Position numbers and translations under genes: made by a program
Shown here: piece by piece, positions 8,387 to 24,546 of the stretch
Layout of the letters: each line of letters opens with the position of its first letter
Position numbering within the stretch: position 1 is the first letter of the stretch
Notes under the pieces: generated by a model
Database searches by the model: none
Told to the model about the DNA's origin: nothing
The model's input: the letters and a program-made list of their open reading frames with translations, nothing else
Assembly: GCF_039555755.1 (NCBI RefSeq)
Contig: NZ_CP154631.1
Coordinates: 1,054,001-1,118,000 of the forward strand
Length of the DNA: 64,000 nucleotides
From: Pseudomonas sediminis
Lineage (GTDB): Bacteria > Pseudomonadota > Gammaproteobacteria > Pseudomonadales > Pseudomonadaceae
Direction: 5' to 3'

Positions 8387-8962
8387 ATGCGCCACCTGCT
8401 GCTCGCCCTGCCCTTCGCCCTGCTGCCCCTGGTCGCCGCCCAGGCCCATGAACACGGCCATGATCACGACCACGAACATTCCCACGACAGCCTGGGTGCC
8501 CACGAACACGGCGTCGCCAGCCTCAACGCAGCACTGGACGGCAACCTGCTGGAGCTGCAGCTCGAAAGCCCGGCAATGAACCTGGTGGGCTTCGAACATG
8601 CCGCCAAGAGCGATGCCGACAAGGCCAAGGTCGCCGCCGCCAAGCGGGAACTGGAGCAGCCCATCAGCCTGTTCGCCCTGAACAGCGGCGATTGCAAGGC
8701 CACCCAGGTCGAACTGGAAAGCCCACTGTTTGGCGACGCTGATCATGATCATGATCATGATCATGATCATGAAGGCGAGCACAGCGACATCCATGCGCAC
8801 TATCGCTTCGAATGCGCCAAGGCCAACGAATTGAAACAGTTGGATCTCGCCGAACTGTTCAAACGCTTCCCCGCCACCGAGAAGATTCAGGTACAACTGA
8901 TCGGCCCGAATGGTCAGCAGGGCGTGGAACTGACGCCAGCACAGCCACGCCTGAGCTTCTGA
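8387..8962 (+). CDS. Periplasmic histidine-rich zinc-binding protein, DUF2796
   Basis: The protein has 191 residues. A signal peptide (LLLALPFALLPLVAAQA) ends just before a His/Asp-rich stretch, HEHGHDHDHEHSHD. A second run of five Asp-His pairs lies near residue 120, encoded by a GATCAT tandem repeat. The rest matches DUF2796 proteins such as PA4063. GGAG seven bases upstream sets the ATG. As first gene of the Zur-box operon it probably collects periplasmic Zn(II) for the ABC ATPase/permease pair that follows. Confidence 0.88.
   Translation: MRHLLLALPFALLPLVAAQAHEHGHDHDHEHSHDSLGAHEHGVASLNAALDGNLLELQLESPAMNLVGFEHAAKSDADKAKVAAAKRELEQPISLFALNSGDCKATQVELESPLFGDADHDHDHDHDHEGEHSDIHAHYRFECAKANELKQLDLAELFKRFPATEKIQVQLIGPNGQQGVELTPAQPRLSF
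8741..8772 (+). repeat. (GATCAT)5 microsatellite encoding Asp-His pairs
   Basis: Five perfect GATCAT units plus GA lie within the DUF2796 gene. The unit is six bases, so changes in copy number keep the frame and change only the number of Asp-His dipeptides. Confidence 0.95.
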
Positions 8963-9037
8963 CCTGCCACGTCTCATTGCCGGAGTGAGCGCCCCTCGCT
9001 CCGGCAATAAATGCCTTCTCCCGACACGCAGCAGACA

Positions 9038-9745
9038 ATGACCGAACCTCTGATCGAACTCGCCAATCTCGGCTTCGCCTGGCCCGGCCAGGCGCAGCTG
9101 CTGGATATCCCCGTCTTCACCCTGGCACGCGGTGAAACCCTGTTTCTCAAAGGCCCAAGTGGCAGCGGCAAAACCACCCTGCTCGGCCTGCTCGGCGGCG
9201 TACAAAGGGCACAAAGCGGCCATATCCGCCTGCTCGGCCAGGACCTCGGCCAACTCTCCGCCGGTGCCCGCGACCGTTTTCGCGTCGACCACACTGGCTA
9301 CATCTTCCAGCAGTTCAACCTGCTGCCATTTCTTTCTGTGCGCGAGAACGTCGAGCTGCCCTGCCGCTTCTCGCGCCTGCGTGCCGAACGCGCACGCCAG
9401 CGCCACGGCAGCATCGATGTCGCCGCAGCGGCGCTGCTCGACCATCTCGGCCTGCGCGCCGACCTGCTCGGCCGTCGCGCCGACGAACTGTCCATCGGCC
9501 AGCAACAACGCGTTGCTGCCGCGCGAGCACTGATCGGCCAGCCGGAACTGGTGATCGCTGACGAACCGACTTCGGCACTGGACTTCGACGCCCGCGAGGC
9601 CTTCCTGCAATTGCTCTTCGCCGAATGCCGCGCTGCCGGCGCCAGCCTGCTGTTCGTCAGCCACGATCAGAGCCTGGCTTCGCTGTTCGACCGCAACCTG
9701 TCGCTGGCCGAACTTAACCGCGCCACGCGCCCACAGGAGGCCTGA
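9038..9745 (+). CDS. ABC transporter ATP-binding protein (LolD/MacB-type), zinc operon
   Basis: The protein has 235 residues from MTEPLIEL; an in-frame ATG at 9011 would add nine residues, and neither has a clear SD. Walker A GPSGSGKTT lies near residue 41, signature LSIGQQQRVAAARAL near residue 152, and Walker B LVIADEPTSALD near residue 172. It belongs to the group that pairs with FtsX-like permeases and acts mechanically rather than as a classical importer. The permease starts 1 base after its stop. Confidence 0.93.
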   Translation: MTEPLIELANLGFAWPGQAQLLDIPVFTLARGETLFLKGPSGSGKTTLLGLLGGVQRAQSGHIRLLGQDLGQLSAGARDRFRVDHTGYIFQQFNLLPFLSVRENVELPCRFSRLRAERARQRHGSIDVAAAALLDHLGLRADLLGRRADELSIGQQQRVAAARALIGQPELVIADEPTSALDFDAREAFLQLLFAECRAAGASLLFVSHDQSLASLFDRNLSLAELNRATRPQEA

Positions 9746-9746
9746 G

Positions 9747-11153
9747 ATGCACCTGATCCGCATCGCCCTGGCCAGCCTGGCCAACCGCCGCTTCACCGCC
9801 TTGCTCACGGTATTCGCCATCGCCCTTTCGGTGTGCTTGCTGCTGGCCGTGGAGCGTGTACGTACCGAAGCTCGCGCCAGCTTCGCCAACACCATCAGCG
9901 GCACCGACCTGATCGTCGGCGCCCGCTCCGGCAGCGTGAACCTGCTGCTCTACTCGGTGTTCCGCATCGGCAACGCCACCAACAACATCCGTTGGGACAG
10001 TTTCGAGCACTTCGCCAACCACCGTCAGGTGAAGTGGGCCATCCCCATTTCCCTCGGTGACTCGCACCGTGGCTATCGGGTAATGGGCACCAGCACCGCC
10101 TATTTCGAGCATTACCGCTACGCCCGTAGCCAGGCGCTGAAGCTGGCCCAGGGCCGCGAGTTTGCCGACGACCCGTTCGAGGTAGTACTCGGCGCGGAAG
10201 TGGCCCAGGCGCTGGGCTACGGTCTCGGCGAGAAGGTCGTCCTGGCACACGGCGTCGCCACCATCAGCCTGGTCAAGCACGACGACAAGCCGTTCACCGT
10301 GGTCGGCATCCTCGAACGCACCGGCACACCGGTCGACCGCACGCTGCACATTTCCCTGGCTGGCATGGAGGCGCTGCACATCGACTGGCAAAACGGCATG
10401 CCGGCACGCAGCGCGGCGCAGATCAGCGCAGATCAGGTGCGAGAGTGGGCAAGCGCCTGTTCACAAGCGTCGCGAGCGCAGACGGGGCAAGGCGAAAGCG
10501 GGCGAGGAAGCGCAGTTGAGTCGAGTCTCAATGAGCATTCCGAGCCTGCTTTCAACGCAGCAGCGTCAAGCGCAGTAGCTTGTGGACAGGCGCTGCAGCC
10601 CAAGCAGATCACTGCCTTCCTGCTCGGCCTCAACAGCAAGATCGCCACCTTCAGCCTGCAACGAGAAATCAATGAATTCCGCGGCGAGCCGCTGCTGGCG
10701 ATCCTACCAGGCGTAGCTCTGCAGGAGCTGTGGAACCTGATGGGTACGGCCGAAAAAGCACTGTTCGTGGTCTCGCTGTTCGTCGTGCTGACCGGTCTGA
10801 TCGGCATGCTCACGGCGATTCTCACCAGCCTCAACGAGCGCCGCCGGGAGATGGCCATTCTGCGTTCGGTAGGCGCCCGCCCCTGGCATATCGCCAGTCT
10901 GCTGGTGCTTGAGGCCTTCACTCTGGCGCTTGCCGGCGTGACCTTCGGTGTCGCGCTGCTCTATCTGGGTATCGCCGGCAGCCAGGGCTTCGTCCAGGCC
11001 AATTACGGTCTGTATCTGGCACTCAATGCGCCGTCGAGTTACGAATGGAAACTACTTGGTGGCATTCTCGCCGCAGCCGTGGCGATGGGCAGCGTGCCGG
11101 CCTGGCGGGCCTATCGGCAGTCGTTGGCCGATGGGTTGTCGATAAGGCTCTAA
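9747..11153 (+). CDS. FtsX-like ABC permease carrying an in-frame repeat-element insertion
   Basis: The protein has 468 residues. An N-terminal membrane helix (about residues 17-37) is followed by a large periplasmic domain. Three more helices, near 335-360, 378-405 and 433-450, form the FtsX/MacB-like module, with the conserved LNERRREMAILRSVGARPW loop between the first two. Residues ~236-283 (from SACSQASRAQTG to about VACGQAL) are low-complexity and are encoded by a 143-bp TIR element also found before uvrA. As I remember it, the PA4065 ortholog passes directly from the ...ISA/VR segment to LQPK. The frame remains open, so function may persist. Confidence 0.9.
   Translation: MHLIRIALASLANRRFTALLTVFAIALSVCLLLAVERVRTEARASFANTISGTDLIVGARSGSVNLLLYSVFRIGNATNNIRWDSFEHFANHRQVKWAIPISLGDSHRGYRVMGTSTAYFEHYRYARSQALKLAQGREFADDPFEVVLGAEVAQALGYGLGEKVVLAHGVATISLVKHDDKPFTVVGILERTGTPVDRTLHISLAGMEALHIDWQNGMPARSAAQISADQVREWASACSQASRAQTGQGESGRGSAVESSLNEHSEPAFNAAASSAVACGQALQPKQITAFLLGLNSKIATFSLQREINEFRGEPLLAILPGVALQELWNLMGTAEKALFVVSLFVVLTGLIGMLTAILTSLNERRREMAILRSVGARPWHIASLLVLEAFTLALAGVTFGVALLYLGIAGSQGFVQANYGLYLALNAPSSYEWKLLGGILAAAVAMGSVPAWRAYRQSLADGLSIRL
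10452..10594. mobile_element. MITE-like TIR element, copy A (inside permease)
   Basis: Left end AGCGCCTGTTCACAAGC and right end GCTTGTGGACAGGCGCT are inverted repeats of 17 bases with one mismatch. The interior shares GGCAAGGCGAAAGC..GGCGA.GAA and AATGAGCATTC.GAGCC.GCTTTCAACGCAGC-like blocks with the copy at 21552-21710. Length and phase leave the host reading frame open. No transposase is encoded and no clear target-site duplication is visible. Confidence 0.8.
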
Positions 11154-11211: not shown

Positions 11212-11733
11212 ATGTCCCGCCCCCTGCTCGCCACCCTGCTGCTGAGCCTGGCACTACCGCTGGCCGCCGCTGATGTGCGCGAACTCACCTGGTCCGAGCT
11301 GATTCCGCCGGATGCTCCGCCGCAGGTCATCAACCCTGCGCCGATCCACGACCTCTCTCAACTGGCCGACGCGCTGGCCGAGTCCGGGCCGGCCGCCATG
11401 CAGCAATCGCCGGCCGCACCAGTGGTCAAGGAGCTCAATGGTCAGCAGGTGAAGGTGCCCGGTTATATCGTGCCGCTGGATGTGACTGACGAAGGCCGGG
11501 TGGTGGAGTTTTTGCTGGTGCCCTACTTCGGCGCCTGCATTCACGTACCACCACCGCCCTCGAACCAGATCGTTCACGTCACCAGCGAGCTCGGCGTACT
11601 GCTCGACGCGTTGTACCAGCCGTTCTGGGTGGAAGGCCCGCTGAAAACCGAACATGTCAGCAGCGAGCTGGCCGAAGTTGGTTATAAGATGGAAGCGGAC
11701 AAGATCTACGCCTACGAATTGCCGGATAACTGA
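11212..11733 (+). CDS. Secreted DUF3299 protein of the zinc operon
   Basis: The protein has 173 residues from MSRPLLATLLLS, with GAGG 9 bases upstream; a TTG-started frame from 11161 is not supported. The signal peptide ends ALPLAAA before DVRELTWSELIPPD. The family hallmarks VPGYIVPLD and LLVPYFGACIHVPPPPSNQI are present. It has no lipobox. It is the last gene of the Zur-box operon (PA4066-like in position). The biochemical role is unknown; a periplasmic partner of the ATPase/FtsX complex is inferred from context. Confidence 0.88.
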   Translation: MSRPLLATLLLSLALPLAAADVRELTWSELIPPDAPPQVINPAPIHDLSQLADALAESGPAAMQQSPAAPVVKELNGQQVKVPGYIVPLDVTDEGRVVEFLLVPYFGACIHVPPPPSNQIVHVTSELGVLLDALYQPFWVEGPLKTEHVSSELAEVGYKMEADKIYAYELPDN

Positions 11734-21551: not shown

Positions 21552-21710
21552 TAGGGAGCCTGTAAAAGCGTTAGCGAGGCAGCTAGCGCAAGGCGAAAGC
21601 AGGCGAAGAATGCACTGGGCCCGCATCCGGGTTTACGAGCTGTAAATGAGCATTCTGAGCCGGCTTTCAACGCAGCGCTTGCAACGCAGATAGCTTTTAG
21701 AGGTTCCCTA
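21552..21710. mobile_element. MITE-like TIR element, copy B (abuts uvrA)
   Basis: The ends TAGGGAGCCTGTAAAAGC and GCTTTTAGAGGTTCCCTA are 18-base inverted repeats with two mismatches, each with TA outermost. The interior shares GCAAGGCGAAAGC and AATGAGCATTCTGAGCC-type blocks with the copy at 10452-10594. The right end lies one base before the uvrA GTG, and its AGAGG (21699-21703) is the only plausible Shine-Dalgarno for uvrA. Confidence 0.82.
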
Positions 21711-21711
21711 A

Positions 21712-24546
<2,835 letters not shown>

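Follow-up and report, generated by a model that had tools for sequence, protein, structure and literature searches.

A mobile hairpin repeat inserted in frame within a MacB-type permease gene of Pseudomonas sediminis

We analysed a window of 64,000 nucleotides from Pseudomonas sediminis (contig NZ_CP154631.1, positions 1,054,001 to 1,118,000) and found that its MacB-type permease gene contains a full-length copy of a dispersed hairpin repeat, inserted without loss of the reading frame. The inserts of eight carrier genomes form one clade with common junctions; the frame, two cysteines and most of the base pairing are kept in them, and a recombination tract spans the insert in the window. The account that joins these observations is drawn from sequence, and we put its probability at roughly 0.8: a mobile repeat would have entered the gene once, with a 6-nt apical loop keeping the frame, it would be translated as a cysteine-bounded loop, and the allele would have moved between species by recombination while the hairpin was mostly kept. 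Below, G000 denotes the genome of the window and other G numbers denote the genomes compared with it.

The permease gene and its operon

The permease displays a MacB_PCD domain at residues 19-231 and an FtsX domain at residues 341-459 (Pfam), and its gene lies among those for a ZrgA-family zinc-binding protein, an ABC ATPase and a DUF3299 protein.

8387 to 8962, + strand: ZrgA-family zinc-binding protein, operon member (PF10986, 3.3e-56)
9011 to 9745, + strand: ABC ATPase, operon member (PF00005)
9747 to 11153, + strand: MacB/FtsX-type permease, 468 aa with the insert (reading frame open through the insert; Pfam domains)
11212 to 11733, + strand: DUF3299 protein, operon member (PF11736; start from a simple gene model, scanned against Pfam as the longer open frame from 11161)

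This domain pair and these gene neighbours identify a MacB-type permease of the PA4063-PA4066 kind and an operon of the type found in P. aeruginosa. In P. aeruginosa, PA4064-PA4065 are reported to form a MacB-type exporter with links to pyochelin and cobalt (PMC11481552). An earlier reading of this DNA, made from the letters alone and referred to here as the sequence-only reading, had named an FtsX-like permease in a zinc operon. Going by the Pfam boundaries, the insert follows just past the matched periplasmic core, a position that MacB topology suggests is itself periplasmic. Among the database matches listed, orthologs free of the insert are mostly 420-421 aa long.

The insert belongs to a family of hairpin repeats

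The inserted element is bounded by terminal inverted repeats that are complementary at 16 of 17 nt (94%), just as the sequence-only reading had described them (143 bp, 17-bp inverted repeats, one mismatch).

10452 to 10594, + strand: inserted repeat element, 143 bp, with the sense strand as the apparent folding strand (inverted repeats, own-genome BLASTN, covariance model and fold)
10452 to 10468, + strand: left terminal inverted repeat, 17 nt
10458 to 10460, + strand: codon of Cys238, present in 8 of 8 carriers (seven distinct sequences)
10487 to 10562, + strand: conserved core of the repeat (GCAAGGC ... GCAGCA), the most invariant columns of the copy alignment
10515 to 10532, + strand: apical stem-loop, its stem altered by paired substitutions between carriers
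10521 to 10526, + strand: apical loop, 6 nt in the permease copy and usually 5, sometimes 4 and once 6 nt in other aligned copies
10578 to 10594, + strand: right terminal inverted repeat, 17 nt
10581 to 10583, + strand: codon of Cys279, present in 8 of 8 carriers (seven distinct sequences)

The 143 bases of the insert fold at -83.1 kcal/mol (z -7.9), and none of 200 shuffles folds as well. BLASTN of these 143 bp against their own genome returns 26 matches, itself included, and a covariance model of the repeat, which is about 142 nt long, finds 71 copies there, 76 in G276 and 44 in G012. Under stricter filters and with rough E-values, the model has matches in 47 of 115 genomes from the order and, for the phylum, in 40 of the 200 drawn, own genome included. 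Matches also occur in other classes of the phylum (G573, G582, G545 and others); in some of them many scores are identical, a hint that the repeat has amplified there recently.

Of 50 copies considered, 37 went into the family alignment (A3), where they form one long hairpin with changes on both sides at 30 of 39 pairs. In the paired columns 94.8% of cells pair, a value that no shuffle out of 500 reaches and that compares with 30-40% in slid controls. The drawn strand has 61 G-U cells against 16 A-C cells (P 2e-7, with cells treated as independent although they are not); this excess suggests that folding occurs on that strand, which in the permease is the sense one. Rfam gave no match on a copy, either in the window with its two copies or in 20 loci with other copies, and a search with E up to 5 over 351 bases surrounding the element yielded only two opposite-strand matches, at 17.3 and 13.2 bits against cut-offs of 45 and 100.

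With a length of 142-143 bp, terminal inverted repeats, no transposase gene, 71 copies at different sites and an empty permease site in other genomes, the repeat has several properties of a miniature inverted-repeat transposable element (MITE). Among 30 compared non-permease copies of G276 and G012, two share their site with a G000 copy. The repeat ends fall in several classes, one of which resembles the ends of ISPsy19, and the repeat would be mobilised by a transposase supplied from elsewhere. A search of the own genome for a partner insertion sequence by one inverted-repeat pattern gave 20 sites (2 for the reversed control), six of them outside the listed copies; no transposase was seen by eye at these six in frame listings and, for three, in ORF translations. 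A lone perfect end, CTTAGAACCTGTTCACGATC, at G000:C1:1499591 (L202, about 2001) is not among the 71 copies and perhaps belongs to another element with the same ends.

A single insertion at a site that is empty elsewhere

The insert peptide was found inside the permease in 8 of 398 genus genomes, and five further genomes match it elsewhere; this is a count of peptide matches rather than of permeases read genome by genome. G085, which is of the same species as the window genome, has an empty permease allele of 421 aa. When the permease was compared across 36 genus genomes, three matched over all 468 residues, and in the other 33 the match breaks near residue 232 and resumes near residue 282. Reading out 30 permease loci gave a plain junction in 27 and the insert in 3; the neighbouring residues are QAR or EAR in each of the 27 empty loci and QVR in the 3 carriers. 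A length of 468 aa occurs in 5 of the 120 protein clusters listed in one search and in none of 120 in another, and a similar intact junction is seen in empty alleles across the order. The sequence-only reading had proposed a mobile palindrome inserted in frame, a proposal that the repeat family and the same-species empty allele uphold; it had also held that finding the segment in most orthologs would overturn this, and the segment proves to be rare. Two of its details need correction. The frame is indeed read through, with a net gain of 47 residues (468 against 421 aa) in place of about 48, and orthologs do have an uninterrupted junction, which reads ISADQARxMDLxP or similar and does not run from ISA/VR straight to LQPK. 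The insertion junction has therefore replaced a few residues as well.

In a tree of 102 copies the eight from the permease group together as one clade (support 0.967); G000 copies shorter than 130 or longer than 160 nt were excluded from this tree, as were some of those retrieved from other genomes. The eight also share both junctions and the neighbouring Ala-to-Val change, and one clade with common junctions points to a single insertion event. The insert of G287, a genome that fits P. cavernae, is the weakest member of the clade, matching the inserts of the remaining carriers at 82-85% and a free copy from the G287 genome itself at 82%; replacement by another repeat copy is less firmly excluded there.

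Lengths and junctions suggest how the frame came to be kept. The permease copies are 143 nt long in 8 of 8, and the 94 other copies include 53 of 142 nt and 13 of 143 nt. At least one of the six frames is open in 25 of 42 free copies, the frame used in the permease in only 2 of the 42. The insertion site was probably an out-of-frame TGA within the Met-Asp-Leu-Gln/Thr-Pro codons; in G287 the sequence C-TGA-CG of empty Leu-Thr alleles is still present at the right junction. Around the copies in general, TNA or TA flanks are frequent and would fit insertion at stop codons, but equal flanking triplets occur in only 8 of 71 copies (shuffled mean 3.6, P 0.017), the permease copy having none. A usual body of 140 bp with a 3-bp target duplication would add 143 bp and shift the frame. 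The permease copy would have added 141 + 3 = 144 bp, counting the outer A and T in a TNA duplication, and would have landed in frame, probably because its apical loop has 6 nt instead of the usual 5. Since the net gain is 141 bases and not 144, the loss of one codon near the left junction would have followed, and 47 extra residues would remain.

Probable exchange of the allele between species

On a partial rpoB tree of 24 genomes, in which rpoB was identified by RNA polymerase beta domains, the carriers form two groups, with empty genomes within and between them. Informative sites along 8.2-12.4 kb of the window mostly follow the same-species genome G085. The exception is a tract around the insert that resembles G223, a carrier of another species.

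10169 to 10661, strand not applicable: tract like G223 and not like G085 (runs of informative sites; edges uncertain)

Sites at 9.83-10.17 kb are mixed, and another G223-like run lies at 7.79-7.99 kb, where G085 aligns poorly. A segment of about 0.5 kb that includes the insert has therefore probably crossed from one species to another, in either direction. The allele would thus have passed between species by homologous recombination, with its frame and most of its hairpin kept since.

Pairing, codons and cysteines within the gene

Seven distinct permease inserts allow the hairpin to be followed pair by pair inside an open reading frame. In these, 97.8% of 364 cells pair (shuffled mean 95.8) and six pairs have changed on both sides (shuffled mean 1.4), five in G287 and one in G014; none of 500 shuffles reaches either value, under a null that ignores codon constraint and with the structure taken from the G000 sequence. 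Out of 52 pairs, G208 keeps 52 with 11 differences, G014 49 with 12 and G287 49 with 22, each better than random placement (P 0.03 or less). Pairing is no better than chance in G276, G012 and G291, which have 1, 2 and 5 differences, and G291 breaks 2 of the 52 pairs. The apical stem reads TTTAC/GTAAA in G287 and most free copies and TTGAG/CTCAA in the other carriers, a difference that alters the protein (VYEPV in G287, against VESSL, VESNL or VETRL).

Synonymous differences are fewer in the insert than in the permease flanks. They number 8 of 34 against 174 of 321 for G000-G014 (P 0.0005; P 0.02 against the nearest 150 bases), 9 of 34 against 167 of 328 for G014-G287 (P 0.005; P 0.13) and 1 of 34 against 96 of 324 for G012-G276 (P 0.0002; P 0.0003), and the reduction for G000-G287 against the nearest 150 bases has P 0.05. 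These genome pairs are interdependent, and the nearest carriers have recent tracts in common. G208 entered the DNA, pairing and cysteine tests and not the codon comparison. Non-synonymous change in the insert is no different from that in the conserved permease flanks. Compared columns are free of indels in all six pairs among four orthologs; for free-copy pairs that differ by up to 16 substitutions, the figure is 51 of 111.

Cys238 and Cys279 are present in all seven distinct inserts, and the host domain is nearly always without cysteine: among 41 empty proteins chosen from 240 listed, one has a cysteine at about residues 47-300. The gene would be translated through the insert, giving a periplasmic loop bounded by the two cysteines, between which a disulfide could form. 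Domestication of the insert, which the sequence-only reading had asserted, is in this way supported indirectly, through the kept frame, both cysteines, most of the pairs and the reduced synonymous change. That reading had not noticed that the hairpin, too, is largely preserved within the gene.

Location of the copies in the genome

According to gene calls from a simple codon-usage script rather than annotation, the permease copy is the only one of the 71 that lies inside a gene. Contacts within 20 nt were counted at 37 gene 3' ends and 12 gene 5' ends (without a random-placement control), and in 19 cases a copy and a gene end share exactly one base, 8 in the same and 11 in the opposite orientation; L106, L114, L129 and L150 are examples of such overlaps. 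Insertion at or beside stop codons may be a habit of the repeat. Of the 37 contacts at 3' ends, 26 place the folding strand opposite the gene's own strand and 11 place it on that strand. A general function as sense RNA is not favoured by this, and the orientation, taken with the intergenic copies, speaks against a general RNA role. Ten pairs of intergenic copies at the same site are 0.936-1.000 identical in the element and 0.808-1.000 in the flanks. Since 13 of their 23 changed pairs still pair, one by a double change, they give no sign of strong in-place selection on copies generally.

The window holds a second copy just 5' of a gene with UvrA domains and a GTG start codon, confirming the homologous element that the sequence-only reading had placed ahead of uvrA.

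21553 to 21709, + strand: second repeat copy (covariance model, 82.7 bits), ending 2 nt before the uvrA start at 21712

The right end of this copy supplies AGAGG, 8 nt upstream of the uvrA start, and the repeat may provide the uvrA ribosome binding site. Alignment with the same-site copy of G085 (L103) shows 17 gap positions, apparently extra bases in the upper hairpin, and copies of 157-158 nt (L007, L020) likewise have an extra arm in the upper hairpin.

Outside the permease, the insert peptide occurs at five places in the 398 genomes (open frames of 76-155 aa, three with an internal stop) and at four further places in named Pseudomonas. A stop-to-stop script, which covered seven of these nine places (all except L065 and L066), gave frames of 67-90 aa at the four places in named Pseudomonas and printed none for L063, L064 and L067.

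Alternative explanations

The favoured account takes the repeat as a non-autonomous, MITE-like, rod-shaped hairpin that inserted once in the permease gene. Most probably the insert is translated and the protein tolerates it as a loop, which a disulfide may close. That the peptide never appears, the hairpin being bypassed by the ribosome or excised from the mRNA, is highly improbable: the sense RNA does fold very stably, but a stop-free frame and both cysteines are kept in 7 of 7 distinct inserts, which would be needless if the segment were skipped. We give no more credence to an ancestral segment lost in most lineages, or to several independent insertions. Such histories would suit the two separate carrier groups, with empty genomes among and between them, and the G287 insert, nearly as close to a free copy as to the other carriers; they sit badly with the similar intact junction in empty alleles across the order and with eight inserts that form one clade with one pair of junctions and a common neighbouring Val.

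The preservation of the hairpin could reflect selection on the nucleic acid, templating of mutations between the arms or, in part, recent common history; for the permease copy we modestly favour the first, and would ascribe it to a mild effect of an mRNA or DNA hairpin at this site. A benefit-free loop, carried along at a permissive periplasmic place with its frame kept for the sake of a needed permease and its likeness due to recent spread of the allele, seems to us rather unlikely, although it has points in its favour: Rickettsia palindromic elements (RPE) are a reported precedent with near-neutral effect (PMC2229807), inserts within one carrier group are 96-100% identical to that of the window, G000 carries an exchange tract, and pairing in the three nearest carriers tested no better than chance. 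What weighs on the other side is that, between carrier groups, the adjoining flanks have diverged and the insert less so (weaker for pairs with G287), that non-synonymous change in the insert is like that of the conserved permease, and that six pairs have changed on both sides. Correction of one arm from the other in replication or repair would produce paired changes without selection and would account for covariation in other copies too. It is nevertheless unlikely, as arm correction alone would leave Watson-Crick arms without strand bias, whereas G-U exceeds A-C by 61 to 16 (in non-independent cells), and conserved unpaired positions have not been corrected away. The most far-reaching reading would make the repeat a widespread, uncatalogued structured nucleic acid whose fold is selected even in a gene, with selection acting on the permease copy in two forms, a protein loop closed by a disulfide and a hairpin formed by RNA or a single strand. 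Judged from the DNA, this is doubtful, and it is held low by the strand orientation at gene ends, the intergenic pairs and the fact that five of the six double changes lie in G287.

Discussion

Ever since the studies in Rickettsia, in-frame mobile palindromes have been discussed as raw material for new parts of proteins. The permease case offers a single insertion that eight genomes carry and that another genome of the species lacks, with a fold traceable pair by pair inside an open reading frame. It allows a test of whether inserts of this kind are tolerated, serve as protein or are retained for their nucleic acid, and the DNA concerned may be maintained for its peptide and for its fold alike.

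Comparison with known systems draws on the accessible portions of the papers cited here. MITEPsy1 of Pseudomonas syringae is another short repeat of the MITE kind in Pseudomonas, with a short target duplication of 4 nt where the permease repeat would have 3; it differs in its ends and its 100-nt length, and its insertion is reported to change the frame (PMC3189936). The same source gives ISPsy19 the ends GAGGGTGTAGACAAAAT and a 3-nt duplication, and it is these ends that one end class of the permease repeat family resembles. R178 of P. fluorescens (Silby 2009), 101 bp with internal inverted repeats in three strains (PMC2718517), might be the core of the family, a likeness that was drawn by description and not by comparison with its consensus. 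QMITE2 of Coxiella burnetii is a hairpin MITE that lies at the 3' ends of genes and is also reported to overlap a gene end by 1 bp (PMC5896051); it differs in its direct repeats of 7-11 nt, its length of 150-190 bp and the REP that it contains; here the likeness is one of description, not of compared sequences.

In-frame insertion of palindromic, MITE-like elements is, according to these sources, already established for Rickettsia and enterobacteria. RU-1/ERIC, RU-2 and RU-3 of enterobacteria are MITE-like hairpin repeats fused in frame to genes (PMC2759123); those cases mostly extend the ends of genes or belong to small ORFs, whereas the permease copy is full-length, internal and present in eight genomes. 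RPE are palindromic repeats of 100-150 bp that lie in frame in conserved protein genes and are translated as extra residues, nearly half of them reported in ORFs in R. conorii (PMC2229807, PMC10969869). The permease insert matches them as an in-frame palindromic insertion in a protein gene with an empty ortholog, a resemblance in way of working rather than one of compared sequences, and departs from them in host group and in that 1 of 71 copies, not nearly half, lies inside a gene. A literature search found no description of the Pseudomonas permease repeat among the papers listed, and its DNA-word part brought up five papers on unrelated subjects. As far as this search reached, what the present case adds is the repeat family as a covarying structure, an example from Pseudomonas, and pairing kept inside an open reading frame.
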